From a virus: a stretch of 58,667 nucleotides of DNA. This document shows positions 19,234 to 58,667 of this stretch, piece after piece. The stretch is from the IMG/VR virus record IMGVR_UViG_3300025082_000009, positions 1-58,667 of that record; one strand, written 5' to 3'. The notes beneath the pieces were generated by a model, which worked only from the letters and a program-made list of their open reading frames with translations, was not told where the DNA came from and ran no database searches. Positions within the stretch are counted from its first letter, which is position 1; each line of letters starts with the position of its first letter. A program made the translations under genes and the position numbers.

Positions 19234-19872
19234 ATGGCTCGTAAGACTTTGTTAACCGAGAGCGAACTTCGCCGCTTCATGAAGCTCGCTGATATGCGCC
19301 CCGTAGGGGAAAAAAGAATTCAAGAAATGGGAGCGCCGCCTTATCCCGGTGCTCGCGATGAAGAAGAAGAAGTAGAGGCCGAGGTAGAACTCGGACCTGC
19401 GGATGACGTGCCTATGGGCGAACCAATGGACGAGCCAATGGACGAGCCAATGGAGGAACCTATGGACGAGCCAATGGACGAGCCAATGGACGACATGTCC
19501 GTTGAAGCAGACCCAGCGGTGGAAGCTAAATTTGCCGAGTTTATGACGCAAGTGGCAGCAGTCGCTCAAGAAGTCCTCGGCATCGAGGTCGATGTTGAAG
19601 AAGCTCCAGCAGCCGGAGACGAACTCGGCGGAGAAGAAGACATAGAAATGGACGCTGCAGCAGTAGAAATGGAGCCAATGGGCGATCTCCCGGGAGAGGC
19701 CGAAGAAGGAGGTGAAGAACTTGAATTTGGCTCAGAAGAAGAAGAAGACCCAGAGGCTGCAATGGTCGCTGAAGTCGCTCGACGCGTTGCTGTGCGCCTC
19801 CAAAGAGAGGGGCGCAAAGCAGAAGTTGTCGACCAACTAGCCGAAAGAATCATGAAGAGGCTCACAAAATAG
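19234..19872 (+). CDS. Acidic repeat protein, scaffold/prohead-core candidate
   Basis: The 212-aa protein has a basic helical N-terminus (TLLTESELRRFMKLADM), then a very acidic body with a PMDEPMDEPM tandem repeat near residues 62-85, long Glu runs and a basic C-terminal helix (LQREGRKAEVVDQLAERIMK). Basic ends around an acidic low-complexity centre suggest a prohead scaffold or core protein, with LLTE fitting an LxE maturation site. No enzyme motif is present. It is followed directly by a strong terminator. Confidence 0.7.
   Translation: MARKTLLTESELRRFMKLADMRPVGEKRIQEMGAPPYPGARDEEEEVEAEVELGPADDVPMGEPMDEPMDEPMEEPMDEPMDEPMDDMSVEADPAVEAKFAEFMTQVAAVAQEVLGIEVDVEEAPAAGDELGGEEDIEMDAAAVEMEPMGDLPGEAEEGGEELEFGSEEEEDPEAAMVAEVARRVAVRLQREGRKAEVVDQLAERIMKRLTK
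19417..19488. repeat. Six 12-nt tandem repeats inside the acidic protein gene
   Basis: Six in-frame units close to GACGAGCCAATG, each encoding (D/G/E)EPM, lie head to tail. Third-position differences in units 1 and 4 show that copies have begun to diverge. Slippage could change the linker length. Confidence 0.85.
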
Positions 19873-20995: not shown

Positions 20996-22705
20996 ATGTC
21001 AGACTTACATAAGATTTTACAAGAAGAGTACGAAAAGAAGCTCACTCTTTCCCCTCACCTCTTGATGGAGATGATCGGGGAAATGATGGACGAGATGACC
21101 GCGCATGCTCTGTCCCCCTCTCCAATTGAGGAAGAAGCTTCTAACCAATCAACTCGCACTTATCATGTATCAGAAATTCCCATGATCCCGATTTCAGAAT
21201 TGGGGTGGGCTAATGCTGACGATGACGCCGCCAATGATGACCCGAGTGTACCACCCTCTCAGCGCGCAGGCCTGGAGCAGTATTTAAGAAACATTCCTGG
21301 TACCGGATTTGACGATAAGCTTAATGCAGTTTCTGATATTATGAAGGAAGGGATCAACTCACTTCCTAAAGATAATCCTCGTGAGTTCATCCAGCAGGCC
21401 ATGGCCTTCTTGGTGTTCTATAAGACCCTTACAATGGCAATTACCAACTTCAATGCATCTGCTGCAGGCTTTAACTTTGAAGCTTTCCTGGCAGCATTGA
21501 TGGATGGAAAACAGATCCCAGCCTCTGGCGCCAATACAATTGCTGATATTACAGCAAACGTCGATGGAGAGCGCGTACCAATCAGTCTCAAACTTTATAA
21601 CGATGCCGGACTTGAGGTCGGCGGTAGTTTTGTAGATTTGAGTAACGATATGATCGTGCCTAACCCAGCCTGGGAGGCCTGGGTGGCGTCCAATCCGGAG
21701 TTCGAAGGCGGCGCCATGCGCTATATTGCATGTACAAAGCAGTTATCAGGTGACGGAGTGGAACAAGAAGGGGTTATCAACTTTTATGAGTTTGATATCA
21801 CACGTTCAAATCTCTTTGAACTTCTCTCTAATGCCGGCCAAAAAGGCCAGAAATGCATTCTTTCTAACCGCGCCTTTATGAGCGCCCTTACGCGCTACAT
21901 GGAGACTGGAGAAGAGACTGAAGCACTTGAGTGGGCGGCTAACATTCCAGCCCGAAGCGATACTAGTGATTCGGCAGAGATGTCAACGATGTGGTCGAAC
22001 TGGCTCGACAAAACACCCCTTGAGGGATTGCAAGAATTCGGAGTAGATGATTCTCAAATCGAGGCTATAAAAGATGCGATACTCCGCTTATATATCGATA
22101 CTATCGAGAGAGAACAAAAAGCCCTCCGACTTGGCACACCCTCGCAAATTAAGGGAGCAATACTCTCTGTGATTAATCCTGAACTTAAAACCAGTTCGCG
22201 ACACCCCGAGGTGGAGAAGACAAAACAAATAGCAGCATTGTTTATAGATCTTTTTAATCAATTTAAGAAACAAGAGATAAAATCCCGAGATGCGCGCTCA
22301 AACTTCCTTAATAGCGTTGAGGAGTGGGCGACTGGAAACGAAGTAGTAGAGTGGTACAATGCCCTAACTCCAGAACTGAAGGCTGTTGCCATCAAGAATT
22401 CAAGAGGATATCTATCCAACTCTCACTGGGTGGTCCCACGCGGCGCCACCATTAGACTGGGAGGTGGCGAGCCTTTCGCGATGCTTCAAATTGGCGCCAA
22501 GTATGTGGTACAAGTGTTGGAGACAGCCCGCGGCGAACTGATAGACGAGGTGTTCGGCATCTTTGACGAGATGGCAAAAATGTCAGCCAAGCTAAATTCA
22601 TTCTTTGCAAACGGACTCCAGGCTCCAGAAGAAGCCGAGGCAGGCGCCGAAGCCGGCGAAGCTGCCGCAGAGAAAGCTCGTCACGTTGCTGGCGTAGACG
22701 AATAA
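20996..22705 (+). CDS. Virion-type protein with possible PD-(D/E)xK core
   Basis: The 569-aa protein has an N-terminal helix (MSDLHKILQEEYEKKL) with an LQE site like a prohead-protease target. Around 160-200 the sequence FNFEAFLAALMDG (E162), then IADI (D184), then ISLKL (K199) has the spacing of restriction-fold nucleases, followed by GGSFVDL. The C-terminus is Ala/Glu-rich. A packaged nuclease or a structural protein reusing the fold are both possible. Neighbours are ClpP and GroEL genes, and it is not recognised beyond this. Confidence 0.6.
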   Translation: MSDLHKILQEEYEKKLTLSPHLLMEMIGEMMDEMTAHALSPSPIEEEASNQSTRTYHVSEIPMIPISELGWANADDDAANDDPSVPPSQRAGLEQYLRNIPGTGFDDKLNAVSDIMKEGINSLPKDNPREFIQQAMAFLVFYKTLTMAITNFNASAAGFNFEAFLAALMDGKQIPASGANTIADITANVDGERVPISLKLYNDAGLEVGGSFVDLSNDMIVPNPAWEAWVASNPEFEGGAMRYIACTKQLSGDGVEQEGVINFYEFDITRSNLFELLSNAGQKGQKCILSNRAFMSALTRYMETGEETEALEWAANIPARSDTSDSAEMSTMWSNWLDKTPLEGLQEFGVDDSQIEAIKDAILRLYIDTIEREQKALRLGTPSQIKGAILSVINPELKTSSRHPEVEKTKQIAALFIDLFNQFKKQEIKSRDARSNFLNSVEEWATGNEVVEWYNALTPELKAVAIKNSRGYLSNSHWVVPRGATIRLGGGEPFAMLQIGAKYVVQVLETARGELIDEVFGIFDEMAKMSAKLNSFFANGLQAPEEAEAGAEAGEAAAEKARHVAGVDE

Positions 22706-33502: not shown

Positions 33503-34399
33503 ATGGATAAATGGTGGAGATTGATAAGAGAGGACAAAGAGCCGACCTACAAGAAGCGCATCCGAAGTTACATTAAAGATCGCAACAGTCTTTTAAAGAA
33601 GGGTGGCCAAAAAAACACGCCACCTTATACCAAATCAATGGGATCTCATGTTACTTTCGACAAGCAACTAGAAGAAGAAATTGACATGGAGACTTTTGAA
33701 AAACACCCAGAGCTTGAGCCACACATTTTTCGTGGCGACGTAATGAAACCCAAGATTCGCAAGCGACTCTTGAAGATCGTGGAAGATTTCTTGGACGGAC
33801 TCAAGATAGAGGTCAACCCTTTAGATATTCGTTTAACTGGCTCTCTTGCAAACTTTAATTGGTCAAAATATTCTGATATCGATCTCCATATCATTGTTGA
33901 CTTCGCCCAGCTTGGAGAAAATGAAGAACTTGTGAAGGCTTATTTTAATGCTGCGCGCATGAACTGGAACAATAAACATGATATTAAAGTTCACGGGTAC
34001 GAAGTTGAAATTTATGTGGAAGACGCACACGAAGAGCATGTAGCTTCTGGGCTCTACTCGTTGACTGACCAGCAGTGGCTTCAGGAGCCAGATCCCGCAC
34101 AAGTGGAGATTGATCATGCAACAGTCCACAAGAAAAGTGATGATATTCTATCACAGATTAATTTGATCGAGAGATTCGCTCTTCAAAAGCCCAAATCAGC
34201 AAAGAAGAGCATCGATAGATTAAAGGCGAAAATCCGCAGGTTGAGACGCGCCGGATTAAAGAGCGAAAAGGCAGAGTTTTCCGCTGAAAATATTGCATTT
34301 AAAATCTTGCGCAGAGAGGGTGCCCTTGATAGGCTTGAGGATATGAAGAATAACGTATATGATGTTCTGATGTCTATGGAGGATAAGGGTGAAGTTTAA
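33503..34399 (+). CDS. Pol beta-superfamily nucleotidyltransferase
   Basis: In this 298-aa protein the signature LTGSLANFNWSKYSDIDLHII gives G113-S114 and the metal pair D125/D127. A third acid probably lies in YEVEIYVED. The C-terminus is a basic helical region (KKSIDRLKAKIRRLRRAGLK). It starts MDKWWRLIREDK, another tag-like helix with an IRE site. It would transfer a nucleotide to protein, RNA or a small molecule; target unknown. Its location among virion genes suggests it might be packaged (inference). Confidence 0.75.
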   Translation: MDKWWRLIREDKEPTYKKRIRSYIKDRNSLLKKGGQKNTPPYTKSMGSHVTFDKQLEEEIDMETFEKHPELEPHIFRGDVMKPKIRKRLLKIVEDFLDGLKIEVNPLDIRLTGSLANFNWSKYSDIDLHIIVDFAQLGENEELVKAYFNAARMNWNNKHDIKVHGYEVEIYVEDAHEEHVASGLYSLTDQQWLQEPDPAQVEIDHATVHKKSDDILSQINLIERFALQKPKSAKKSIDRLKAKIRRLRRAGLKSEKAEFSAENIAFKILRREGALDRLEDMKNNVYDVLMSMEDKGEV

Positions 34400-40897: not shown

Positions 40898-41108
40898 ATT
40901 TATTTATTTATTAATTGGATCTTTTATCTTTTATAGTATTTTTGCATTGGCAGTGGAGATTCTCCACGACATCAGAAATAAAAAGTATGAACTGGCAGAC
41001 GCTAGAAACACCGAAGAGAGGCAAATCGCTGGTGAAGAAACAAGTGAAGTCGCTTTAGATTATTTACAGATAGCAAAAAGATCAGGAGGAACACGTGAAG
41101 CTCGTTAG
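40890..41108 (+). CDS. Single-pass membrane protein
   Basis: The 72-aa protein has an N-terminal helix FIYLLIGSFIFYSIFALAV anchoring a charged cytoplasmic segment (Glu/Arg-rich). It is coupled by 14 nt to the MazG-like gene, whose product it might localise (inference). Confidence 0.6.
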   Translation: MIEFIYLLIGSFIFYSIFALAVEILHDIRNKKYELADARNTEERQIAGEETSEVALDYLQIAKRSGGTREAR

Positions 41109-41430: not shown

Positions 41431-41433
41431 GTT

Positions 41434-41670
41434 GTGCTTGAACTATTTTTGGGATGTGTGTTATTTTCGATAGGATTTGTAGCTGGTGCGTGGTATAAAT
41501 CTATGATTTATGACAGTCAACCGTGGGAAGTCTTTCGCTGGGATTCTGTCGCGATGGGTTACCGTCCTATTCCAATGGGCAGTCTATTACATCGCGGCGA
41601 GAACGTATTGATGGGGTTGCGCCTGAACTCTGAAGCCTTTCCTTCCGAGGGGATTCCACTTGAGAAGTGA
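41434..41670 (+). CDS. Small membrane-anchored protein
   Basis: The 78-aa GTG-started protein has the helix LELFLGCVLFSIGFVAGAWY followed by a soluble Pro/Arg-containing tail with WEVFRWDSVAMGYRPIP. Unknown function. It ends just before promoter cassette 1. Confidence 0.6.
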   Translation: MLELFLGCVLFSIGFVAGAWYKSMIYDSQPWEVFRWDSVAMGYRPIPMGSLLHRGENVLMGLRLNSEAFPSEGIPLEK

Positions 41671-41681
41671 CTAAATTTCTC

Positions 41682-41737
41682 TTGACATTCACTTGACAAC
41701 TTTCCTATAGACAACCCCGATTAATCTGTGGTATAAT
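41682..41737 (+). promoter_or_regulatory. Promoter cassette 1
   Basis: TTGACA at offset 0 and 11, TAGACA at 26, and TGG-TATAAT at 50 (41732-41737). The functional pair is probably TAGACA-18-TATAAT with an extended -10. The two upstream TTGACA boxes, one helical turn apart, could be activator sites or alternative -35s. Leads to the gene at 41769. Confidence 0.85.
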
Positions 41738-41768
41738 GTAGGCATAAATCAAGAAGGAGTGAGAAGAA

Positions 41769-42386
41769 ATGCCAAACTGGTGCGATAACACATTAAACAT
41801 TACAGGAACCTCGGAGAGTATCAAACAGATCGTCCAAGCCCTGCGCGCAAATAACTTCAACTGGAATGAGACATTTATTCCATACGTAGATAGGAGTAGC
41901 TGGGGAACCAAATGGGAAGTGGACAACGGAACTCTTGAAGCCCTGATAGAACAGGACTATACCGAGGGAGATGACTTTTTAAATGTTTGGTTTGATACTG
42001 CTTGGGGCCCGAATCTCCCTGTGAGCGAAGCCATAGCTAGTAAGCATGGTGTGGAGATCACACATAAATACGAAGAGGGCGGAAACGCAATAATGGGGAT
42101 AGCTCACATCGACAGTTCTGGTGATTGCTATGATGAAGAGTTTGATACTTCCGACATCAGGCAAGTTGTAGCGTTCCACGACGGCATGATCCCAGACCAG
42201 TATTTGGCACTCACGAAGCCTGACGGAACGAAGATTGTAACGGGCGATCTCCTTTACCGCGATGATGCTCCTTTTGGAGTCTTGGTAAGCGAGGAGTCGC
42301 TTCTGCCTGTCGGCATGCAAGTGCCTATCACGGTGGGAGAGATTGATGGAGTTATTTATTTTGATGAATACGAGTGTGGGTTATAA
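41769..42386 (+). CDS. Api92/YubB-like protein (MPNWCxN family)
   Basis: The 205-aa protein has the conserved opening MPNWCDNTLNITG, FDTAWGPN and a central ferredoxin-like alpha/beta pattern typical of this family, known from phages and plasmids without a settled function. The C-terminal 60 residues (KIVTGDLLYRDDAPFGVLV onward) add strands like those of the cassette family. First gene of unit 1, sharing one base (TAATG) with the first cassette. Confidence 0.8.
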   Translation: MPNWCDNTLNITGTSESIKQIVQALRANNFNWNETFIPYVDRSSWGTKWEVDNGTLEALIEQDYTEGDDFLNVWFDTAWGPNLPVSEAIASKHGVEITHKYEEGGNAIMGIAHIDSSGDCYDEEFDTSDIRQVVAFHDGMIPDQYLALTKPDGTKIVTGDLLYRDDAPFGVLVSEESLLPVGMQVPITVGEIDGVIYFDEYECGL

Positions 42387-42568
42387 TGAAAGTCGGTGAT
42401 TTGGTAAGGGTAAGTTTCCCAACAGGATACGAGAAGCCTGTGCTGGCCGTCTATCTTCGCGATGACATCGTTATTTATGGCGTTGCTACTCGCGCCCTGA
42501 TCCTGTGGAAAGGACAGATTTATTCAACTCCCCTCGATCAAATGGAGATAATCAATGAAAGTCGGTGA
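42386..42568 (+). CDS. KVGDLV cassette protein 4
   Basis: The 60-aa protein reads VRVSFPTGYEKPVLAVYLR, then LILWKGQIYST. Ends MEIINESR with the standard ATG junction. ATG placed at the shared TAATG. Confidence 0.8.
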   Translation: MKVGDLVRVSFPTGYEKPVLAVYLRDDIVIYGVATRALILWKGQIYSTPLDQMEIINESR

Positions 42569-42722
42569 TTTGGTAAAGTTTCGATTCTGTGTGCAGGGAA
42601 TGGAGCGCATGGTTGGGCTCGTTGTGGGACTTAATGGCTCACAGCCCATCATTCAGTGGAGCAATGGCATTACTGTCGCAGAACCCGCCCAACTAATCGA
42701 GGTGATAAATGAAAGTCGGTGA
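42555..42722 (+). CDS. KVGDLV cassette protein 5
   Basis: The 55-aa compact member reads VKFRFCVQGMERMVGLVVG, then PIIQWSNGITVAEP. Ends LIEVINESR. It sits exactly between two standard junctions, so it is translated if its neighbours are. Confidence 0.8.
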   Translation: MKVGDLVKFRFCVQGMERMVGLVVGLNGSQPIIQWSNGITVAEPAQLIEVINESR

Positions 42723-42894
42723 CCTCATAAGAGAGAAAACCCATCCCACAGATGCCTGTGGCATCATTGTGGAAGTCGGAGACTTGAGAAAAAAGAAGCC
42801 TTACAAGGTTTTTTGTCCTGTTTGGGGTAAAGTTTTGGCTTTTGAAAAGAAGTATATTCAGCAAGAGTGCGAGGTTATCAATGAAAGTCGGTGA
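42709..42894 (+). CDS. KVGDLI cassette protein 6
   Basis: The 61-aa protein reads KVGDLIREKTHPTDACGIIVE, and contains a second internal VGDL (EVGDLRKKKPYKV). Its start region uses ggtgacCTCATA instead of the common ggtgatttggta. Ends CEVINESR. Confidence 0.8.
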   Translation: MKVGDLIREKTHPTDACGIIVEVGDLRKKKPYKVFCPVWGKVLAFEKKYIQQECEVINESR

Positions 42895-43069
42895 TTTGGT
42901 TAAGTTTAAAACTACACACTCGCCTAAGCCTTGGACGGAGAAAGTGTTTCTTGTATCAGAGTGCAACACTAACCATATTAAGTTAGTAGGCGCAAACAAC
43001 TATGGCCCAAGCGATGCCCCCTCGTGGCTCTACCGCGAGAACTGGGAGGTTGTCAGTGAAAGTCGGTGA
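42881..43069 (+). CDS. KVGDLV cassette protein 7
   Basis: The 62-aa protein reads VKFKTTHSPKPWTEKVFLV, then NTNHIKLVGANNYGPSDAPS. Ends WEVVSESR, and its Ser codon (AGT) creates a GTG start for the next gene. Confidence 0.8.
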   Translation: MKVGDLVKFKTTHSPKPWTEKVFLVSECNTNHIKLVGANNYGPSDAPSWLYRENWEVVSESR

Positions 43070-43214
43070 TTTGGTTAAATGTGTTTCTGCTGACGGTGTT
43101 ATCGGCTTGGTGGTTCGTATTAAGAACAACGCACACGGTACACCCATTTATGAGGTTTTAATCGGCTCAAACTGTTACCCCTTCCGCTCTGCTATGCTGT
43201 GGAAGGTGGTGTAA
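43056..43214 (+). CDS. KVGDLV cassette protein 8
   Basis: The 52-aa GTG-started protein has a minimal barrel: VKCVSADGVIGLVVRIKNN, PIYEVLIGSN and MLWKVV. It lacks the ESR tail: stop TAA, then the next GTG one base later, so a junction was lost here. Confidence 0.75.
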   Translation: MKVGDLVKCVSADGVIGLVVRIKNNAHGTPIYEVLIGSNCYPFRSAMLWKVV

Positions 43215-43215
43215 A

Positions 43216-43440
43216 GTGAAAGTCGGTGATTTAGTAACAAGAAAGCTCGGCGGTTCAACAATCTGGAAAAGGAACGCTGCATGGCAGCAACGACAGAAAC
43301 TCGGCACTGGAATAATCTTATCAAAACAGATGAGCGGAAAGCCCGAACATTCCTGTCTCACGGTTTATTACGCAAAAACAGGAGAGCAGTGGGACATCGC
43401 CGAGTCTCTTATGGAGGCTGTCAATAGTGAAAATCGGTGA
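43216..43440 (+). CDS. KVGDLV cassette protein 9
   Basis: The 74-aa GTG-started protein includes GTGIILSKQMSGKPEHSCLT and VYYAKTGEQWDIAES, nearly the same as the protein at 45181, showing duplication across about 2 kb. Tail reads NSENR rather than NESR. Confidence 0.8.
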   Translation: MKVGDLVTRKLGGSTIWKRNAAWQQRQKLGTGIILSKQMSGKPEHSCLTVYYAKTGEQWDIAESLMEAVNSENR

Positions 43441-43600
43441 TTTAGTAAGATGGGAAAGTGTAGACAATGACGGCACAGAAGTTATCTGGGCCGAGCTTGG
43501 ATTGGTAGTCGAAATAGGACTTGCAACCGCGCTTGTTTTGTTTTCAGACAACGAAAAGGTGTGGTTAAGAATAGATGATTTGGAGATAATGAATGGCTAA
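43427..43600 (+). CDS. KIGDLV cassette protein 10
   Basis: The 57-aa GTG-started acidic member reads VRWESVDNDGTEVIWAELGL, then LVLFSDNEKVWLRIDD. Ends DLEIMNG, overlapping a non-family gene by 8 nt. Confidence 0.75.
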   Translation: MKIGDLVRWESVDNDGTEVIWAELGLVVEIGLATALVLFSDNEKVWLRIDDLEIMNG

Positions 43601-43883
43601 TAAAATACAACCAATAACCGAGCTTCACCCCGATGCTCTCCTTTTAGAACCCCGCGAATACTTTGATAAGGCGTTGGTGGGCGTTATCGCGTTCCCTGAA
43701 GACGATTGGCCGCGGGTTGAACCCATGAACGTCGCCGCTTACGATGTATATTTATGCATTGAAGCCATCGAAGAATGGATCGGCTGTACAGAGGAAGACG
43801 CAACAGAATGGTTCCACTATAATACGGCTGGAGCATGGGCTGGTGAAGGCACTCCGACATTTGTAACGGACGATGAAGAATGA
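43593..43883 (+). CDS. Non-family hypothetical protein in the array
   Basis: The 96-aa acidic protein reads DALLLEPREYFDKALVGVIA, then YDVYLCIEAIEEWIGCTEED with two Cys and Trp-rich helices. It resembles phage proteins starting with LxPRxxFDxAxVGV. The 4-nt overlap to the next cassette. Function unknown. Confidence 0.65.
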   Translation: MANKIQPITELHPDALLLEPREYFDKALVGVIAFPEDDWPRVEPMNVAAYDVYLCIEAIEEWIGCTEEDATEWFHYNTAGAWAGEGTPTFVTDDEE

Positions 43884-44062
43884 AAGTCGGCGATTTGGTT
43901 AAATGGCAGGGAGCAACTGCCACTGTTATCAGAGTTTATCGCCGTCGTGAGTTGTCAGGCAACCCAGACGGCGATTTTGACATCATATTGAGCTATGACG
44001 TCTTGTGTGGTGGCAAGATTATCCGCACCAGACGCAGACTTCCAGTTATTAGCTCCTCTTGA
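43880..44062 (+). CDS. KVGDLV cassette protein 11 (unit-end type)
   Basis: The 60-aa protein reads VKWQGATATVIRVYRRRELS, then YDVLCGGKIIRTRRRLPVIS. Its paralog at 48037 has the same body and the same position just before a promoter cassette, so gene plus promoter were probably copied together. TGA is inside TTGACA. Confidence 0.8.
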   Translation: MKVGDLVKWQGATATVIRVYRRRELSGNPDGDFDIILSYDVLCGGKIIRTRRRLPVISSS

Positions 44063-44114
44063 CATTCACTTGACAACTTTCCTATAGACAGCCCCCATGA
44101 TCCTATGGTATAAT
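44059..44114 (+). promoter_or_regulatory. Promoter cassette 2
   Basis: Boxes at offsets 0, 11, 26 and 50 as in copy 1; TATAAT 44109-44114. First TTGACA contains the upstream stop (44060-44062). Confidence 0.88.
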
Positions 44115-44145
44115 GTGGTCACATTCAAACAAGGGAGAGTAAATT

Positions 44146-44520
44146 ATGGGATACCGTTCAGAAGTAGTTTTAGTCGTTGGCAGGGAGGTCATGCCACAGT
44201 TTATGGCTACGATGTGCTCCTCGCAACAGGCGCGCGCCATGTGCTTCGACGAAGCCACGCGCGTAAAAGATTACGAGGGCGAAGAAGGCGCTATTCTCTT
44301 CCGTTGGGATAGCATTAAATGGTACGACTCCTTCGAGGAAGTCGAGGCCATTGAGGACTTTATGGATTGGTGCGAGTGCGAAGAACTTGAGCTTGATGAC
44401 GAAATGCATTCAGCTATGGATTTCTTCCGTTTTGTTCGCATCGGCGAAGATACGGACGATGTAGTTGAGCGCGGACACGGCTTTTGGAGCGTTGGCGTAC
44501 GAAGGGCGATCTCATGGTAA
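44146..44520 (+). CDS. YRSEV-family hypothetical protein
   Basis: The 124-aa protein opens MGYRSEVVLVVGREVMPQF, a start shared with small phage proteins of unknown role. The body is acidic with a ferredoxin-like alternation (ILFRWDSIKWYD, then EVEAIEDFMDWCE, then FFRFVRIGED). First gene of unit 2. Possibly the same fold class as the lead gene at 41769. Confidence 0.7.
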   Translation: MGYRSEVVLVVGREVMPQFMATMCSSQQARAMCFDEATRVKDYEGEEGAILFRWDSIKWYDSFEEVEAIEDFMDWCECEELELDDEMHSAMDFFRFVRIGEDTDDVVERGHGFWSVGVRRAISW

Positions 44521-44690
44521 TGAAAGTCGGTGATTTGGTAAACAACCTTAACTCGGAGTGTGGACTGTTGGGGGTTATTGTGGGTTGGCATGTCTCCACC
44601 CATGGGCGCTTCCCTCTTATACACTGGAATGACGGGCGCACAAGTTGGATCATCGCGCATCGCGTGGAGGTGATTAGTGAGAGTAGGTGA
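44520..44690 (+). CDS. KVGDLV cassette protein 12
   Basis: The 56-aa protein reads VNNLNSECGLLGVIVGWHVS, then FPLIHWNDGRTSWII. Ends VEVISESR, GTG-type junction. Shares TAATG with the unit's lead gene. Confidence 0.8.
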   Translation: MKVGDLVNNLNSECGLLGVIVGWHVSTHGRFPLIHWNDGRTSWIIAHRVEVISESR

Positions 44691-44862
44691 TTTAGTAAAA
44701 GTCAAGGTGAAATACAACCGCGCCAAGATTGGCTTGGTAGTGGAAGTGGCGACTTACAACGGCAGCGGTGCCGTCTACGGATACATGGTCAAGCCTGTTG
44801 ATGGAAGTCGTCCCATTATTGCAGAACCTCAAGATATGGAGGTGATCAATGAGAGTAGGTGA
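44677..44862 (+). CDS. RVGDLV cassette protein 13
   Basis: The 61-aa GTG-started protein has VKVKVKYNRAKIGLVVEVAT and YGYMVKPVDGSRPIIAEPQD. About four fifths identical to the next gene, the clearest recent tandem duplication in the array. Confidence 0.8.
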   Translation: MRVGDLVKVKVKYNRAKIGLVVEVATYNGSGAVYGYMVKPVDGSRPIIAEPQDMEVINESR

Positions 44863-45031
44863 TTTAGTAAAAGTCAAGGCGAAATACAATCGCGTCAAGA
44901 TTGGCTTGGTGGTAGAAGTGGCGACTTACTACGGCGTTGCCGCCTACGGATACACGGTCAAACCTGTTGACGGAACTCGCCCCATTTTCGCGGAACCTCA
45001 AGACATAGAGATAGTAAATGCAAGTCGGTGA
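44849..45031 (+). CDS. RVGDLV cassette protein 14
   Basis: The 60-aa copy of the preceding gene is one residue shorter in the loop (YYGVAAYGY). Ends IEIVNASR: GAA to GCA in the tail turns the next start region from AAAGTC to CAAGTC (MQVGDLV). Confidence 0.8.
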   Translation: MRVGDLVKVKAKYNRVKIGLVVEVATYYGVAAYGYTVKPVDGTRPIFAEPQDIEIVNASR

Positions 45032-45194
45032 TTTGGTAAAGACAACATGTTTTGGCCCGAAGGGGGAAGTCGGCGAAGTTGGCATGATTATTCGTCGATA
45101 CCCTCGCATGATAAAGTGCTGGGAAGTTCTCTTCGGCAGCGTGATTCGTGTCATCGGTCAAGACGGACTGGAGGTGATTAGTGAAAGTCGGTGA
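45018..45194 (+). CDS. QVGDLV cassette protein 15
   Basis: The 58-aa protein reads VKTTCFGPKGEVGEVGMIIR, then CWEVLFGSVIRVIG. Ends LEVISESR, GTG-type junction. Confidence 0.8.
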   Translation: MQVGDLVKTTCFGPKGEVGEVGMIIRRYPRMIKCWEVLFGSVIRVIGQDGLEVISESR

Positions 45195-45402
45195 TTTAGT
45201 AATAAGAAAACGCGGTGGTGATTGGATCTGGCAGAGGCAAGCAGCGTATGAGCAGCGAAAGGAACTCGGCACTGGCATAATCTTATCAAAACAAATGAGC
45301 GGAAAGCCCGCACATCCATGCCTCACAGTTTATTACGCAAAGGCAGGAAGAACTTGGGACATAGCGGAGTCTTACATGGAGGTTGTCAGTGAAAGTCGGT
45401 GA
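45181..45402 (+). CDS. KVGDLV cassette protein 16
   Basis: The 73-aa GTG-started paralog of the gene at 43216 (GTGIILSKQMSGKPAHPCLT; AKAGRTWDIAES). The N-terminal third has diverged more than the last two thirds. Ends MEVVSESR. Confidence 0.8.
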   Translation: MKVGDLVIRKRGGDWIWQRQAAYEQRKELGTGIILSKQMSGKPAHPCLTVYYAKAGRTWDIAESYMEVVSESR

Positions 45403-45577
45403 TTTGGTTCAAAGAGGAAATGTTGTCGGACTGGTTGCGGAAGTCATGATTGCCAATGAAATCCAATGGATTAAGATTATCGCCAACAATGGAAAATACG
45501 TTGGCGGCAATAATAGGTATTTTTCTCAAATAGGCTGGAAGGTAATAAACCCAGCCACAACAAAGGTAGAGCAATGA
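45389..45577 (+). CDS. KVGDLV cassette protein 17
   Basis: The 62-aa GTG-started protein reads VQRGNVVGLVAEVMIANEI, then KIIANNGKYVGGNNR. It ends INPATTKVEQ without the ESR tail, overlapping a non-family gene by 4 nt. Confidence 0.75.
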   Translation: MKVGDLVQRGNVVGLVAEVMIANEIQWIKIIANNGKYVGGNNRYFSQIGWKVINPATTKVEQ

Positions 45578-45909
45578 GAGTTTGGGTTATGAGCGGGATT
45601 CACGAGGGTGACATGTGGGCATCCACCCACTTAACAGAGAAGGGCGCTGTACTGGCGGCCATTGCCGATGTGCTGGAGTATTTGAACGTGAGCGATGCGG
45701 AGGGTGCCCTAGACGCTATGAACCACTACGGGCGCTATAGCAACGAGGCAAATGGTGATCACACGGAGGCTACGCCATGGGATCCCAGCGAGCTAAGGAA
45801 GCTGAAATCGCCCGCTTTGTGGGAAATCTTTGCACAATGGTCAGAGCTTACGTGGGACAACTGCGTAGGCTATAGCGTCGAGGTCATGAAAACGACGATT
45901 GAAGCGTGA
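45574..45909 (+). CDS. Non-family hypothetical protein
   Basis: The 111-aa protein reads MRVWVMSGIHEGDMWASTHL, then helices (KGAVLAAIADVLEYLNV) and an acidic middle. Similar short phage proteins begin with a (V/I)xGIHEG strand. Ends 10 nt before promoter cassette 3. Unknown role. Confidence 0.65.
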   Translation: MRVWVMSGIHEGDMWASTHLTEKGAVLAAIADVLEYLNVSDAEGALDAMNHYGRYSNEANGDHTEATPWDPSELRKLKSPALWEIFAQWSELTWDNCVGYSVEVMKTTIEA

Positions 45910-45919
45910 TAATCGTCCC

Positions 45920-45975
45920 TTGACACTCTCTTTACAACTTAACTATAGACAACCCCGATTAAACTGTGGTATAAT
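45920..45975 (+). promoter_or_regulatory. Promoter cassette 3
   Basis: TTGACA, TTTACA (offset 11), TAGACA (26), TATAAT (50; 45970-45975). The second box deviates at one base. Confidence 0.85.
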
Positions 45976-46004
45976 GTTGGCACATTCGGAACAGGAGTAA
46001 TAGA

Positions 46005-46508
46005 ATGAAAGTACGCAACGCCCTCAAGAAAGTCAAGTCCCATTTCAAAAAACAGGGTATTGACATCGTTATCAATCATCCAGAACAACGCGGCTCTTAC
46101 AAGTGGTCATTCGAGCATGATGGCTATGTCGGCTCGTTCTCTGTGAACGGCATGCATGGCACTGACCCTGACGCCCTCGATGGCGATGCTACCCTGTTTC
46201 ACGTTCGCCGCGAGAACGACCACAGCGATCTGTACACAGACTACCACGCTGGCTCATTCCGCGATAACATCACACAGGTATGCGAGAGCCTTCTGGCCTC
46301 GCCTCCAAAGTATCCCGTTGGCACACTGGTGCGAGGCAGACAGAACAAGCGCGCCAAGCGTTTTAGCTTCAACGGCAAGGTGGGGCTCGTGATGTCTACG
46401 TCTGATGGCTATTGTGAAGTTCAATGGGTCGGCGAGACACCTAAAGTCAACGCCTACTATTATCAGGTACAACGGTACTCTTTCCGTGACCTTGAGGTGG
46501 CATCATGA
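46005..46508 (+). CDS. Lead protein of unit 3 with fused C-terminal SH3-like domain
   Basis: The 167-aa N-terminal domain (1-95) is an alpha/beta sequence starting KVRNALKKVKSHFKKQGIDI with a strand-rich core (YKWSFEHDGYVGSFSVNG). The C-terminal part begins KYPVGTLVRGRQNK and continues GKVGLVMSTSDGYCEVQWVG, i.e. a cassette-type barrel ending RDLEVAS. It shows the small domain used as a module in bigger proteins. Overlaps the next cassette by 4 nt. Confidence 0.7.
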   Translation: MKVRNALKKVKSHFKKQGIDIVINHPEQRGSYKWSFEHDGYVGSFSVNGMHGTDPDALDGDATLFHVRRENDHSDLYTDYHAGSFRDNITQVCESLLASPPKYPVGTLVRGRQNKRAKRFSFNGKVGLVMSTSDGYCEVQWVGETPKVNAYYYQVQRYSFRDLEVAS

Positions 46509-46654
46509 GAGTCGGTGATTTGGTTAAAGTCAGGTATGATGGAACCGTGGCGCTTGTCGTCCGCGTCATTGATGGCTCGCATCCGTGGATATATCTCCAC
46601 ACTGGCGAGTCTTTCAGGAGCGATAAGCTGGAGGTGATCAATGCAAGTCGGTGA
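46505..46654 (+). CDS. RVGDLV cassette protein 18
   Basis: At 49 aa, this is one of the two smallest intact members: VKVRYDGTVALVVRVIDGS, then PWIYLHTGESFRSDK. Ends LEVINASR, giving MQVGDLV in the next gene. Confidence 0.8.
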   Translation: MRVGDLVKVRYDGTVALVVRVIDGSHPWIYLHTGESFRSDKLEVINASR

Positions 46655-46880
46655 TTTGGTAAAGATTTATAACTATACACATAAAGCGCGCGAACAGGCG
46701 CACAAGCTAGGTGGCAGTGAGGTCGGACTTGAAGACATTAATGCCCACATGTACGGGCTGATCATCAAAGGCGATGGTAGCCCAAAGTACGGGCATTACC
46801 GCGAAGTGTTGCGCTCTTGCGACGGAGAAGCTAGGTTCTATAATGTTTGTCGTTTGGAGGTGGTCAATGAAGGTCGGTGA
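46641..46880 (+). CDS. QVGDLV cassette protein 19
   Basis: The 79-aa protein has a long first loop (YNYTHKAREQAHKLGGSEVG) and YGLIIKGDGS. Ends LEVVNEGR: AGT to GGT in the tail, so the next start reads AAGGTC, still Lys-Val. Confidence 0.8.
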   Translation: MQVGDLVKIYNYTHKAREQAHKLGGSEVGLEDINAHMYGLIIKGDGSPKYGHYREVLRSCDGEARFYNVCRLEVVNEGR

Positions 46881-47055
46881 TTTGATAAGATTTAGAGGAT
46901 CGCGATGGGCTGGCTATATGGTGGCAAAAATGTATCGGCCTGCATCTGGCAAGCATAAAGGCGCGCCGCGAGTTAACGCCCTTAATACCTTCACGGGTGA
47001 AACGATGATCGAGATACGCCCCAGCGCGCTGGAGGTGATCAGTGAAAGTAGGTGA
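46867..47055 (+). CDS. KVGDLI cassette protein 20
   Basis: The 62-aa basic member reads IRFRGSRWAGYMVAKMYRPA, then RVNALNTFTGETMIEI. Ends LEVISESR. Standard junction on both sides. Confidence 0.8.
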   Translation: MKVGDLIRFRGSRWAGYMVAKMYRPASGKHKGAPRVNALNTFTGETMIEIRPSALEVISESR

Positions 47056-47242
47056 TTTGGTACAGTTTGGCAACTGCGATACTTTTGGCCAAAATAGAGT
47101 TGGCATCGTCTTCGCGATTGATGAAACCATCGATCACGCAGACCCAGACGTTAGGTGGTGCGGTGTACTCTGGGCGAATCGCTTTCCACCACGCACTGTA
47201 ACTGCTAGCCGTTATTTGGAGGTGATAAGTGAATCAAGTTAA
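47042..47242 (+). CDS. KVGDLV cassette protein 21
   Basis: The 66-aa GTG-started protein reads VQFGNCDTFGQNRVGIVFAI, then RWCGVLWANRFPPRTV. Ends LEVISESS with TAA instead of R-TGA, since a different gene follows. Confidence 0.8.
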   Translation: MKVGDLVQFGNCDTFGQNRVGIVFAIDETIDHADPDVRWCGVLWANRFPPRTVTASRYLEVISESS

Positions 47243-47540
47243 AGTCAGTATCCGACCCGCGCTCTTCACTGCTCCGAGCGGTCAGCGTTATGCGGTTGCA
47301 GGCTCACAATGGGTTCCTGTGCCCTCGGACACAACTCAAGCGAACATCGACCAGTTTGTGATCTACTCGCCGCCAGAAGCCCAACAGGACGATAATAACG
47401 GGTCGTGGCAAGTAACAGGATCCAAGGGCAACACTTATACTGTGCGCACCCGTGATGGACAGTGGTTCTGCTCCTGTGCTGGGTTTAGCTTTCGTCGCAA
47501 GTGTCGGCACATCGAGGAGACAAGAAATGAAAGTCGGTGA
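47229..47540 (+). CDS. SWIM zinc-finger-like protein
   Basis: The 103-aa GTG-started protein, NQVKVSIRPALFTAPSGQRY, then SWQVTGSKGNTYTVRTRDGQ, then WFCSCAGFSFRRKCRHIEE. The last segment is the CxC...CxH set of SWIM domains, and the strands before it fit the usual SWIM context. Probably nucleic-acid or protein binding. It ends with the array's NESR tail, having been fitted to the standard junction. Confidence 0.75.
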   Translation: MNQVKVSIRPALFTAPSGQRYAVAGSQWVPVPSDTTQANIDQFVIYSPPEAQQDDNNGSWQVTGSKGNTYTVRTRDGQWFCSCAGFSFRRKCRHIEETRNESR

Positions 47541-47676
47541 CTTGGTGAAACATAAAACCACAAATAAGTGTTATGTGATTACAAACATACGTGGCAACCG
47601 TGCAGGCGTATGGACTGACGGGCAAGTGCGCTTCTTTGGTGGTTGGTGGTTGGAGGTGATCAATGAAAGTAGGTGA
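47527..47676 (+). CDS. KVGDLV cassette protein 22
   Basis: The 49-aa protein VKHKTTNKCYVITNIRGNRA, then VWTDGQVRFFGGWW, and LEVINESR. Equal in length to the gene at 46505 and probably close to the minimal fold. Confidence 0.8.
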   Translation: MKVGDLVKHKTTNKCYVITNIRGNRAGVWTDGQVRFFGGWWLEVINESR

Positions 47677-47878
47677 TTTGGTGAAACATTTTCTGACCGA
47701 TCAGTTGGGAATCATAATCGAGTCGAAAGACGAGCGCAATGATACAAGTCCATTTATCACGGTACAATACCATGTCTTATGGACTACGCAAGGACAGTCT
47801 CTGTTCGGAGCAGGACACAAAGAATGGTGCTCATGGTGCAGTATTAACACGGTGGAGGCGATCAATGAAAGTCGGTGA
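47663..47878 (+). CDS. KVGDLV cassette protein 23
   Basis: The 71-aa protein VKHFLTDQLGIIIESKDERN, then TVQYHVLWTTQGQS and a Cys/Trp turn (EWCSWCS). Ends VEAINESR. Confidence 0.8.
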   Translation: MKVGDLVKHFLTDQLGIIIESKDERNDTSPFITVQYHVLWTTQGQSLFGAGHKEWCSWCSINTVEAINESR

Positions 47879-48050
47879 TTTGGTTCGTAACAAGGAAGGG
47901 GAACATTTTTTAGTCGTTCAACGATACAAGGTTTATAACTATACTGGGCCCAATAGGTGGGCTGACTCCCTCTACTGTCAGTCAACAAAAACAGGAAAAA
48001 TAGAGAGCCTTCAAGTGAGCGATCTGGAGGTGATTAGTGAAAGTCGGTGA
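47865..48050 (+). CDS. KVGDLV cassette protein 24
   Basis: The 61-aa protein VRNKEGEHFLVVQRYKVYNY, then SLYCQSTKTGKIESLQ. Ends LEVISESR, GTG-type junction. Confidence 0.8.
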   Translation: MKVGDLVRNKEGEHFLVVQRYKVYNYTGPNRWADSLYCQSTKTGKIESLQVSDLEVISESR

Positions 48051-48246
48051 TTTGGTTAAATGGCGCGGTTCCGTCGCAGTCGTTGTTAGGGAGAACCGCC
48101 ACTATGTCAGGGATGGCTTCGTCGTCGATGAAGACAGCCTCACCGACGGCGCGCCGCTATTGCTGCGACATTTTAGCTGGGACATCCTTAGCGGGGATCG
48201 CGTGGTTCGTATCCTGCGAAAGCTCCCGCTGATTAATCCCTCTTGA
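48037..48246 (+). CDS. KVGDLV cassette protein 25 (unit-end type)
   Basis: The 69-aa GTG-started protein VKWRGSVAVVVRENRHYVRD, then WDILSGDRVVRILRKLPLIN. Paralog of 43880, also last before a promoter cassette and with its TGA inside TTGACA. Confidence 0.8.
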   Translation: MKVGDLVKWRGSVAVVVRENRHYVRDGFVVDEDSLTDGAPLLLRHFSWDILSGDRVVRILRKLPLINPS

Positions 48247-48298
48247 CATTCACTTGACAACTTAACTATAGACAACCCGAATCAAACTGTGGTATAAT
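48243..48298 (+). promoter_or_regulatory. Promoter cassette 4
   Basis: Boxes at offsets 0, 11, 26, 50; TATAAT 48293-48298. Upstream stop at 48244-48246 nested in the first TTGACA. Confidence 0.88.
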
Positions 48299-48329
48299 GT
48301 GCTCACTAGTTAGAGAAGGAGACAACAGC

Positions 48330-48560
48330 ATGACATTAACACCCTCGCGCAAAGCATCGAGTCGCACGAAGAACCGCATACGGGAACATGGCCCACACTT
48401 TGAAGTGGTTCGTGTTGACAACGCTATGTGTCTTCACGGGCGACAGGCGGCTCTTGTGACGGCTCCTGATGGCTGGAGGGGCTGGTTGCCTCTTGATGAG
48501 CTACAAGAGACTGTAAGGGCACCAGAGCGCACCCTGACTAACGACCCGATTGACTGGTAA
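48330..48560 (+). CDS. Lead gene of unit 4, hypothetical
   Basis: The 76-aa basic N-terminus (PSRKASSRTKNRIREHG), then HFEVVRVDNAMCLHGRQAAL and VTAPDGWRGWLPLDEL, a beta-rich core with a WxxWLP motif. ATG 48330 preferred to upstream GTG/ATG because AAGGAGAC precedes it. Unknown. Confidence 0.65.
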   Translation: MTLTPSRKASSRTKNRIREHGPHFEVVRVDNAMCLHGRQAALVTAPDGWRGWLPLDELQETVRAPERTLTNDPIDW

Positions 48561-48569
48561 GGAGACAAA

Positions 48570-48773
48570 ATGCAAGTAGGTGATCTAGTTAGATTTTATG
48601 AAAGCACCCACCCTGAATACAACGGGATTGTTATCTGGAGAGGTAGAGTTGACTCTCCAATGGAGACTGTGAAGATCCTCATGTTTGACGGATCCACCCA
48701 AATCAGATCGCCCAGTAGCATCGTGGAAGTCCTATCACCAGCGCATAAAGAGGTGATACATGAAAGTCGGTGA
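48570..48773 (+). CDS. QVGDLV cassette protein 26
   Basis: The 67-aa protein VRFYESTHPEYNGIVIWRG, then VKILMFDGSTQIRSPSS, and KEVIHESR. First in unit 4 with its own AAGGAGAC ribosome site. Confidence 0.8.
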   Translation: MQVGDLVRFYESTHPEYNGIVIWRGRVDSPMETVKILMFDGSTQIRSPSSIVEVLSPAHKEVIHESR

Positions 48774-48960
48774 TTTGGTAAAATGGAGAAGCAAGACAAA
48801 CCCAAACTATTACGGGGAATACCGCGAGGCTGTTGGGGTTATTGTGAAAGTTCACCACTATCCCGATAAAAGTATCATCGCCGACATTTTGATGGACGGC
48901 AAGGTGACCCGTTGGAACGAGACAAATCTTGAGGTGATAAATGAAAGCGAAAGTCGGTGA
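48760..48960 (+). CDS. KVGDLV cassette protein 27
   Basis: The 66-aa protein VKWRSKTNPNYYGEYREAVG, then VIVKVHHYPDKSIIADI. The tail reads LEVINESESR: a 6-nt duplication (GAAAGC/GAAAGT) in the junction lengthens it by two residues. Confidence 0.8.
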   Translation: MKVGDLVKWRSKTNPNYYGEYREAVGVIVKVHHYPDKSIIADILMDGKVTRWNETNLEVINESESR

Positions 48961-49102
48961 TTTAGTGAGGCACAGAGGTAACCACTCTATATGGCTGGTA
49001 ATGAAGACTGATGTTAACTTCGATGAAGTGTTGGTTGTTCGGAGCAGTTACAGAGAATGGATCTCTACAAAAGCATTTGAGGTGGTCAGTGAAAGTCGGT
49101 GA
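48941..49102 (+). CDS. KVGDLV cassette protein 28 (MKAKVGDLV)
   Basis: The 53-aa protein, because of the duplicated junction the start gives MKAKVGDLVRHRGNHSIWLV with two extra residues and a 20-nt overlap. Then VLVVRSSYREWIST, and FEVVSESR. A natural example of the junction tolerating an insertion without breaking either frame. Confidence 0.75.
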   Translation: MKAKVGDLVRHRGNHSIWLVMKTDVNFDEVLVVRSSYREWISTKAFEVVSESR

Positions 49103-49391
49103 TTTAGTCACGCTCTCGTCTTATGCAGAGGGGTTGATAGACCTTAAGGTGTATAGCTCCTTCTGGCGCGCCGAATACTTCAACAAGAAACCGCTGATGG
49201 GTATCATCGTGGAAGAGGTAAACTGGATCTGGATTGCCAAGCCATCACAGCAGCCCTTCCGTGTTCGCTGGCTCAATGAGCCTGACCCAAGGCTGATCCC
49301 CAATGGACGCGGAGGGAGGCACAAAGAGTGCTTCTTCACGCGCAAGGATCTGAAGCTAGTGAGAGCCCCCAAGAAGAAAAAGACCTCTTGA
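49089..49391 (+). CDS. KVGDLV cassette protein 29 (long)
   Basis: The 100-aa GTG-started protein, VTLSSYAEGLIDLKVYSSFW, MGIIVEEVNWIWIAKPSQQP, FRVRWLNEPDPRL, and a lysine-rich end (RAPKKKKTS). Largest plain array member. Its TGA lies in promoter cassette 5. Confidence 0.78.
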   Translation: MKVGDLVTLSSYAEGLIDLKVYSSFWRAEYFNKKPLMGIIVEEVNWIWIAKPSQQPFRVRWLNEPDPRLIPNGRGGRHKECFFTRKDLKLVRAPKKKKTS

Positions 49392-56718: not shown

Positions 56719-57018
56719 ATGAAGATTACCAGAGAACAACTTAAACAGATCATTTTAGAAGAGCTAAATGAATCAACCGGAGATGAAGTAATGAACGCCC
56801 TTGGAGATCAATACGGACCATCAAATCGATCTCAACTCGACGCCAAATTCACGCAGCACACAGCGGATTTTCAACACGTTGTCGACGAAATTACAAATGC
56901 CTACGGAAATGAACGGGTTAGAGATGTCGCCACCGAACTCGTAAGAATGATCGCCAACGAAGACGGTCTCAATACTGACACACTAGCATGGCCACGCGGG
57001 CGGAATAAACAAAAGTGA
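56719..57018 (+). CDS. MKIT-tag protein A
   Basis: The 99-aa N-terminal helix MKITREQLKQIILEEL shared with three downstream genes, then a helical body (FQHVVDEITNAYGNERVRDV). GCAGGAG upstream. The tag contains IxE sites. No domain recognised in the body. 4-nt overlap with the next. Confidence 0.7.
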   Translation: MKITREQLKQIILEELNESTGDEVMNALGDQYGPSNRSQLDAKFTQHTADFQHVVDEITNAYGNERVRDVATELVRMIANEDGLNTDTLAWPRGRNKQK

Positions 57019-57476
57019 AAATAACAAAAGCGCAACTAACTCAAATCATAGAAGAAGAGTTACAGAAAGTAGCAGAAGCCGCCGTGCCGGATCCCGTATG
57101 GGGTGGCCATACGTATACCAACCCAAAGCCGAAGATCGACTGTCCGCGGTTTGCAAAGGAGATTGCAGCGGACAAAGCCCAACTAGAAAACAACCCTAGC
57201 GAACTCGGACAAGTTTTTCTTCATAACAAAGAAGAACAATACAAAGCCAAGTGTCAGCCGGCGCCAAGTAGCGCCCTACAAGAAGGGTTCGAAAACTTTA
57301 CACCAGAGAATCTACGAATGGTTATCGATTCACTGATTCAAATGGGGATCCCCGCAGGGGGCGTAGTCGCGGCCGCCATGGCGTTAACGAATTTCTTCGA
57401 AGGTAAGCCGCGGGACTTAAGTGCCAAAGCAGATCTCTATGCAGCTGCAGAAGAAGAAGGTGCCAAGAGAAGTTAA
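57015..57476 (+). CDS. MKIT-tag protein B
   Basis: The 153-aa GTG-started protein, tag MKITKAQLTQIIEEELQK, then a Pro/Cys-containing middle, and a C-terminal helical region (IPAGGVVAAAMALTNFFEG). The C-terminal hydrophobic helix may be membrane-active. Unknown. Confidence 0.7.
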   Translation: MKITKAQLTQIIEEELQKVAEAAVPDPVWGGHTYTNPKPKIDCPRFAKEIAADKAQLENNPSELGQVFLHNKEEQYKAKCQPAPSSALQEGFENFTPENLRMVIDSLIQMGIPAGGVVAAAMALTNFFEGKPRDLSAKADLYAAAEEEGAKRS

Positions 57477-57511
57477 CGAAGGCTTTTTGCGCGGTAGGTC
57501 CTATCTACTAC

Positions 57512-57790
57512 ATGGGCAGATGTGTAGAAGGTAAGTATAAACTCCCCAGGGTGACGGATAATAAGTTTATGTGTCCATGCTGTGGGGCTCCGATTAATTG
57601 GACATGTCCCGGTGGCAATGGCACAAAGGGCTATGCATATTGTTCCAGGTCTATTAATGCTACACAAGTCTGGAGAAGGGGATATCGTCCTCCTGTGCCA
57701 TGTGTGTGGAAGGGTGAAGTCCGACGCCTGACGAACTTTAAGGTAGACATCTGGGATGATAGAGAGTGGACAAAGGAAGTGCTCTCCTAG
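57512..57790 (+). CDS. Cys-rich zinc protein
   Basis: In this 92-aa protein FMCPCCGAPINWTCPGG and YAYCSRS give CPCCG plus later Cys, likely one or two zinc sites. The rest is Trp/Arg-rich. Start has no clear SD, so the N-terminus is uncertain. Confidence 0.55.
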   Translation: MGRCVEGKYKLPRVTDNKFMCPCCGAPINWTCPGGNGTKGYAYCSRSINATQVWRRGYRPPVPCVWKGEVRRLTNFKVDIWDDREWTKEVLS

Positions 57791-57803
57791 CTTATGTGTT
57801 GCC

Positions 57804-58061
57804 ATGGATATTACACCTAGAGTTTCGACCCAGTTTGTGGTGGGCGATTTAGTATTCTTTCTTGGGTATTACAAGAATTACCACGAGGCGAACGAATACG
57901 GAGTCGTACTTAGTGTCGATGAGCCGGGAGCATGGCAGGAAATGGTTTATCATGTGTTCTGGTTTGATCGTGCGTACTCGGGACAATATTCTGGCGGTCA
58001 ATTGGTGTTAGTCTATGAGATCGATCCGCAAACGAAAAATATTACGCTCAATAAGTGGTAG
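57804..58061 (+). CDS. SH3-like family protein (VVGDLV), right flank
   Basis: The 86-aa leader DITPRVSTQ, then FVVGDLVFFLGYYKNYHEAN, EYGVVLSVDEPG and VYHVFWFDRAYSGQY. The last family member visible, 9 kb from the array end. Confidence 0.65.
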   Translation: MDITPRVSTQFVVGDLVFFLGYYKNYHEANEYGVVLSVDEPGAWQEMVYHVFWFDRAYSGQYSGGQLVLVYEIDPQTKNITLNKW

Positions 58062-58077
58062 CGTGTTGGAAATGCGA

Positions 58078-58085
58078 CTATTTAT
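58078..58085 (+). promoter_or_regulatory. Late-promoter-like CTATTTAT
   Basis: Lies 30 nt before the micro-gene at 58115 in a 53-nt gap with no sigma70 boxes. TAGGAG follows. Confidence 0.35.
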
Positions 58086-58114
58086 GAATGTATATGTGAT
58101 AGGAGTGTGAAATT

Positions 58115-58219
58115 ATGCGGTTGTTCTTGAATGAGTGGAGAAAATTTTTAACCGAAGATAGTGAAGGGGGTACGGTGGAAGATAGAGCGGCTAAAGTACA
58201 AGGAAATTTTTTAAAATGA
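58115..58219 (+). CDS. 34-aa tag-like protein
   Basis: MRLFLNEWRKFLTEDSEGGT then basic end. The start resembles the LFxxWRxFLxE N-termini of other phage proteins, but here almost nothing follows, as if a free-standing tag. Overlaps the next gene by 4 nt. Confidence 0.55.
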   Translation: MRLFLNEWRKFLTEDSEGGTVEDRAAKVQGNFLK

Positions 58220-58503
58220 AAATCACAAAACAACAACTTAAAGACATTATTAAAGAAGAGATAGCTGCAGTTTTCGAAGAGGCTAATCGCACTGAAAAGG
58301 GAAATGTTACCCAAAAGGCCCGAGAAAAATATGCAACAGTAGGTAAAGACAAGTTTCCTATTTTTGACAAGAAGAGCGCTGAAGCTGCTATTGATCTCCG
58401 TGGACATACTTCTAAAAAGAACCAGAAGAAGATTATTAACAAGGCTGCTAAGTATGCGCCAGAAGCTGCAAAAAAGGCTCGTGAAGTCGAAGCAGAAGAT
58501 TAA
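58216..58503 (+). CDS. MKIT-tag protein C
   Basis: The 95-aa tag MKITKQQLKDIIKEEIAAVF, then a Lys/Ala-rich, very basic body with RGHTSKKNQKKIINKAAKYA. A packaged DNA-binding protein is conceivable from charge. Its first 28 nt recur exactly in the next gene. Confidence 0.7.
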   Translation: MKITKQQLKDIIKEEIAAVFEEANRTEKGNVTQKAREKYATVGKDKFPIFDKKSAEAAIDLRGHTSKKNQKKIINKAAKYAPEAAKKAREVEAED

Positions 58504-58507
58504 ACAT

Positions 58508-58667
58508 ATGAAAATCACAAAACAACAACTTAAACAGATTATTAAAGAAGAACTTTTTTATGAAAGCCAAGGATCCGTAGGAAATTTTGGTGGTGTTGTT
58601 GGGGGCTTGGCAAGCATGCGGCCGCCGCCGACAGAAGACACACCAGACTCGGTGATTCAACAACAAG
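58508..58667 (+). CDS. MKIT-tag protein D (3' truncated by window edge)
   Basis: Starts MKITKQQLKQIIKEELFYES, then Gly-rich SVGNFGGVVGGLASM and Pro-rich RPPPTEDTP. No stop before the right edge. The Gly/Pro body suggests a structural role. Confidence 0.7.
   Translation, partial: MKITKQQLKQIIKEELFYESQGSVGNFGGVVGGLASMRPPPTEDTPDSVIQQQ

Follow-up and report, generated by a model that had tools for sequence, protein, structure and literature searches.

The N-terminal peptide MKIT(K/R)xQLxxIIxEE (tag A), which opens four genes of an uncultured virus of bacteria that differ in everything beyond it, is very probably a capsid-targeting sequence of the T4 kind, removed by a protease and carrying cargo that is ejected; binding to the prohead core, cleavage, packaging, ejection and the functions of the cargo are all inferred. 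Tag A belongs to a set of three or more tags (A, B, C) that replace one another, and the stretch of DNA analyzed here (the window, a 58,667-bp viral contig without end repeats, which is probably a fragment) contains an accessory cargo cluster of four tag-A genes and one truncated tag-B gene. We observed tags common to different proteins, their spread among contigs, tag swapping, recombination at the tags, linkage to a T4-type head module and agreement with the capsid-protein site. The T4-like reading, which a preliminary description had suggested from the letters of the window, is supported by 254 unrelated groups of mature parts behind tag A, co-occurrence with the protease and gp23, and linkage to head genes, and also by enrichment of (I/L)xE, the match to the capsid site, tag swaps, cargo exchange and the types of tag-B cargo. 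Packaging and injection remain inferred, because there are no virion data for any carrier.

In the mechanism that we propose, the helical tag peptide at the N-terminus would bind the growing prohead core and bring the protein into the immature head. The S77 prohead protease, a relative of T4 gp21, would cut after (I/L)xE at or near the tag end (E14 and/or E18-24) in the course of head maturation, and the mature cargo would stay inside with the DNA. It would then be ejected into the next host, acting before phage transcription starts.

Tagged genes at the right end of the window

The tagged genes and one associated feature are as follows, where ↓ marks a candidate cleavage site or junction.

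56719..57018 (+): tag-A ORF 1, 99 aa, starting MKITREQLKQIILEELNES..., tag MKITREQLKQIILEEL, orphan cargo
57015..57476 (+): tag-A ORF 2, 153 aa, GTG start, tag MKITKAQLTQIIEEEL
58115..58219 (+): tag-B ORF, 34 aa, MRLFLNEWRKFLTE↓DSEGG...
58189..58281 (+): recombination scar, where the tag of a 215-aa gene and the region upstream of it (positions 8295-8384 of contig L327) abut the tag of the following gene
58216..58503 (+): tag-A ORF 3, 95 aa, tag MKITKQQLKDIIKEEI, cargo domain FPIFDKKSAEAAIDLRGH...
58508..58667 (+): tag-A ORF 4, ending at the contig end (99 aa in L327), tag MKITKQQLKQIIKEEL

When a tag-A profile (trained on 341 rows, the window's own tags included) was run on the 129 ORFs of the window, exactly four matched (E ≤ 8e-11, next best 0.26), which confirmed the four proteins that the preliminary description had singled out by their common start. 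An independent tag-B profile matched ORF 58115 at 2.5e-7. For the cargo of ORF 56719, which has candidate sites ILE↓E and LNE↓S, a homologue search found none. The C-terminal domain of ORF 57015 is hydrophobic and belongs to a family with the motif xxEG(L/F)ENxTPEN; LQE↓G directly precedes it, and in the family the domain usually follows (I/L/V)xE↓G after a part of variable length. The cargo of ORF 58508 belongs to a G(S)VxNFGG family, all found homologues of which are tagged.

The tags had also been described as short amphipathic helices with an (I/L)xE site, and both statements held in part. The helical moment was only modestly above that of shuffled sequences (0.35 versus 0.30), and a single-sequence AlphaFold model of one tagged protein, which was of low quality (pLDDT 52), placed a weak helix over residues 5-22. 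A strict (I/L)xE site was present at residues 12-14 in all four tag-A sequences of the window; however, at residues 18-24 only one of the four had a strict site (LNE↓S), and three had a hydrophobic-x-E.

Elsewhere in the window, a run of very small ORFs (40218-49391) starts with M(K/Q)VGDLV(K/R) and often ends in ..EVINESR. These ORFs overlap head to tail and form a second array with a repeated N-terminus, one without the (I/L)xE tag. A GroEL-like chaperonin, apparently phage-encoded, lies at 22780-24351 and is kept in contig G030 with 62% identity.

Distribution of the tags

A wider search for the tag, as the preliminary description had suggested, was extended to contigs of related viruses and yielded tag A on at least 341 distinct proteins, the mature parts of which fell into 254 clusters, 227 of them singletons. 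Tag B (consensus MKLLFENWRKYLNE) was found on 295 proteins in 134 clusters, and tag C (M.RRKN.RFDPRYFMDEKT....E) on 28 proteins. Because the motifs used to collect tags B and C contained the terminal E, its conservation in these two tags is not independent evidence.

At the DNA level, a degenerate pattern for tag A detected at least 119 stretches in the viral collection. In a set of 11.3 million contigs from bacteria and archaea it hit only six, spread over four records of three MAGs; these records could be phage contigs caught in the binning. With a looser pattern, all 30 of the larger tagged contigs gave matches, up to 19 per contig, and the reversed pattern gave none. A tblastn search of cultured phages with a 22-aa tag returned nothing even at E 10, which we do not read as absence, because the search is likely to be insensitive for so short a peptide. 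One cargo protein had no match among cultured phages, and the tag strings were absent from the searched literature, which did not cover most subscription papers and bioRxiv.

The tag end as a putative protease site

Tag A was searched only to residue 15, and the IxE at residues 12-14 belongs to the searched motif. We accordingly give the frequency of [IL]xE beyond that point: it ended at residues 18-24 in 53.5% of 243 unrelated tag-A proteins, compared with 17.6 ± 2.4% (maximum 26% among 500 shuffles) when residues 17-40 were shuffled and with 5-8% deeper in the same proteins. In half of the A-tagged set no strict (I/L)xE falls within residues 18-24; if such proteins are cleaved, this would have to happen at E14 or at a relaxed site.

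The major capsid proteins of the examined tagged contigs contain an invariant LENQAKELLRE↓(A/S/G), the equivalent of the gp23 site. In sequence, the (I/L)xE at the tag end matches the LLRE↓(A/S/G) site of the capsid proteins in the same phages.

Linkage to a T4-type head module

Of 30 tag-A contigs, 20 encode the S77 prohead protease, and none of the seven that exceed 160 kb lacks it. For tag B the count is 14 of 18 contigs, and the 12 longer than 130 kb all have the protease. It was also present in 11 of the 12 relatives of the window; the one without it is a piece of 69 kb. None of eight random contigs had it, which is a weak control at such small sizes (18-66 kb). Among the tag-A contigs, gp23 was present in 18 of the 20 with the protease and in none of the 10 without it; the latter therefore look like fragments without the head module. 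A search for gp23 in the window record, itself a fragment, did not find it.

Nine contigs were analyzed at the level of single genes. Of their 50 A-tagged genes, 47 fell in an interval that starts 15 kb upstream of the large terminase gene and runs to the protease and that makes up 19% of the sequence (Fisher P = 5e-28); these 47 share the strand of the head genes. One of the nine, G030 (protease at 68446-69063), has core genes in common with the window, at up to 77% identity. From an orthologue in contig G015 we had inferred that the cluster of the window lies directly before the terminase; this proved wrong, since L327 extends 3.4 kb beyond the end of the window and contains no terminase there. 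For the same reason we regard the cluster of the window as accessory rather than adjacent to head genes. Tagged genes occur both near head genes and elsewhere in two other contigs (G043 and G013), and contigs of 240-290 kb contain many tags far from the protease.

Several further features of the head modules were recorded. A 242-kb tagged contig (G002) has two gp23-type capsid genes side by side (139350-142938). An S21-like ribosomal protein gene, which bears the annotation RpsU in Microcystis phage Mel-JY01, lies in the head module just 3' of the prohead protease; this gene or similar-looking small basic proteins were seen at L154 22183-22410, G005 71388-71630, G030 66788-67027 and G010 93245-93460. 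The motif RM(K/Q)(K/R)LAGI forms the C-terminal end of scaffold-like proteins in tagged phages, encoded just before the capsid gene (G030 59181, G029 34711 and others). A protein of Flavobacterium phage immuto (L153 16632-17096; FRRMQKLAGIITE) also has it, close to the N-terminus and followed by IxE; it is possibly another capsid address.

Exchange of tags and cargo

Thirteen cargo families were found behind different tags, several of them with the junction at xxE. For example, a protein with tag A in L091 reads ...RRLDE↓GHGLSKKDL and one with tag B in L271 reads ...REYLNE↓AHGLSQKDL, so that the tags end at the same place; in a second clear alignment, ...VLSE↓GE (L087:960-1382) versus ...FINE↓NE (tag B, L230:2947-3324), the two tags likewise end together. 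In the family of ORF 57015, one homologue (L069) bears tag B instead of tag A. If the tags work as in T4, such natural swapping would allow the address to be told apart from the cleavage site.

Recombination at the tags was observed in a single near-identical pair, the window and L327, which represent the same virus population (99.2% identity over 7 kb). The tag at 56719..56763 (+), together with the leader before it, is common to both up to codon 15, where identity breaks; it resumes at 57424, with different cargo between, and cargo has thus been exchanged behind one tag. The 34-aa tag-B ORF at 58115 is truncated: L327 has this tag-B gene intact, with 88 aa (8031-8297), and a tagged gene of 215 aa in L327 is absent from the window. 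The scar at 58189..58281 and the loss of the 215-aa gene are what a crossover between neighbouring tags would produce. Outside the tag cluster of L327, 2.5 kb beyond it, an untagged protein (12316-12843) has a kinase-like GEGQYGKVYL motif.

Alternative explanations

Neighbouring genes with similar N-termini are a frequent outcome of duplication, and the tagged genes could be ordinary paralogues, members of one family in which the N-terminus was conserved and the remainder diverged beyond recognition. We consider this scarcely tenable: the mature parts behind tag A form 254 unrelated groups, enzymes of many folds follow tag B and homologous cargo stands behind different tags, a swapping that by itself already contradicts paralogy. 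The exchange of cargo and the deletion of one gene at the tags of two near-identical viruses could instead mean that the 5' ends serve mainly as DNA recombination handles or translation leaders of a cassette system, with a peptide that has no targeting role. However, within the tags the third codon position is the most variable and the second the least, which indicates that the peptide itself is under selection; moreover, tags A, B and C differ in both DNA and peptide and yet substitute for one another on the same cargo, and a protease-like motif stands at the tag end. A role confined to DNA or translation is thus very improbable.

The possibility that retains somewhat more weight, although we still consider it unlikely, is that the tags direct proteins to another destination (the tail, the portal vertex, the inner membrane or a replication compartment) or dock a phage factor, without cleavage or packaging into the head. 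Direct evidence that places the proteins inside the head is lacking, some cargo, such as the 57015 family, contains hydrophobic stretches, and the cluster in the lineage of the window lies away from the head genes. Set against these points, the tagged genes of relatives are linked to the head module on the terminase, portal and protease side, (I/L)xE is enriched at the tag end and matches the capsid-protein site, and tags are swapped with the junction at xxE. We therefore prefer capsid targeting of the T4 kind. Whether a large group of marine T4-like phages possesses plug-and-play effector delivery, in which three or more tags act both as capsid labels and as DNA recombination handles by which members of one population exchange the injected set, is a wider proposal for which we judge the case to be evenly balanced.

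Comparison with known systems

In T4, the first 10 residues of IPIII suffice, and gp21 cuts after L/I-X-E (PMC9026906). The injected proteins Ip1-3 have only the leader in common and block different GmrSD nucleases, which are type IV restriction enzymes (PMC12373910). The tags resemble the T4 capsid-targeting sequences (CTS) of IPI, IPII, IPIII and Alt in being short N-terminal leaders on otherwise unrelated proteins that end in (I/L)xE, and the phages that carry them have an S77 protease and a gp23-type capsid; the small size and host specificity of the T4 CTS proteins were also counted as a likeness to the tagged proteins. Unlike in T4, several tags can replace one another, the cargo groups number in the hundreds among the relatives, and the cargo includes many enzymes. 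The tag profiles gave no match to the T4 internal proteins, and tag A (about 16-22 residues) has no similarity to the T4 leader; for tag B (14 residues) the likeness is a weak pattern (NWRKYLNE versus TYQEFIAE) that 3-8 of 500 shuffles equal in score. By analogy the tags would be functionally like the T4 CTS, while homology has not been shown, and packaging and cleavage are inferences.

The N-terminal 30 residues of P1 DarB are enough for loading a reporter into the head, and the cargo is anti-restriction (PMC9024508). The packaging signal is thus N-terminal as well; however, the Dar proteins have no recognizable common leader and belong to another head system. Phages of the SPN3US/phiKZ type have a protease related to T4 gp21, cleavage at AXE in SPN3US, and ejection proteins (PMC10052503, PMC5694885). 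These phages are similar in their cleavage after a glutamate motif and in that two of their propeptides are short, with 20 and 24 residues (PMC10052503, PMC5694885), but most of the propeptides are long (111-254 residues), the substrates are few and no short tag is common to many orphans.

T4 has only a small number of internal proteins, and their leader has entered the textbooks. If the present tags work as in T4, sequence alone would be enough to recognize injected proteins in thousands of contigs from uncultured viruses. Hundreds of candidate early effectors or anti-defence proteins, most of them outside known families, would become available, and the tags would be new candidates for leaders with which proteins can be loaded into phage heads.

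Cargo of the tags

Among 148 tag-A proteins, almost none had a match to Pfam, an annotated PHROG or PADLOC, as would be expected for fast-evolving internal proteins. The 105 tag-B proteins gave matches to SAM lyase (two), protein kinase (two), DnaJ (two), NUDIX and HD, and further to an RNase T-type exonuclease, a HAD-type hydrolase, an amidase, a zeta-toxin-like protein and a nucleotidyltransferase; Pfam look-ups to identify the individual SAM lyase proteins of tag B did not find them. Such cargo appears typical of early host takeover, the function of each protein being a prediction, and we infer that destruction of SAM, phosphorylation of proteins and cleavage of nucleotides at the start of infection would suit injected proteins. 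An ART-like look of three proteins (L042, L055 and L237) was noted by eye only and was not retained: L042 and L055 had no Pfam match, and a search for relatives of L042 matched only L042 itself.

Three further N-termini, MDKWWRLIRE, MSDLHKILQEE and TLLTESELRRFM, had been grouped with the tags. They exist in the window, at 33503, 20996 and 19234, but not within 56719-58667, where the preliminary description had placed them, and the three ORFs had no significant match to the tag-A and tag-B profiles.

33503..34399 (+): nucleotidyltransferase-like protein, N-terminus MDKWWRLIRE↓D, candidate cargo
20996..22705 (+): candidate cargo, 569 aa, N-terminus MSDLHKILQEE
19234..19872 (+): acidic protein, LLTE↓SELRRFM near the N-terminus

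A homologue of ORF 33503 (L093:3-896, 43% identity) bears a canonical tag B, and together with a Pfam match just below the cut-off this supports the earlier assignment as a nucleotidyltransferase. For ORF 20996, which had been called nuclease-like, no Pfam or PHROG match supports that label; its homologue (L093:896-1849, 24% identity) also bears a canonical tag B. ORF 19234 is only a weak candidate for tagged cargo. The cargo domain of ORF 58216 also exists without a tag, as a small protein of its own, in Microcystis phage Ma-LMM01 (gp033) and its relatives (locus L200 9034-9213).
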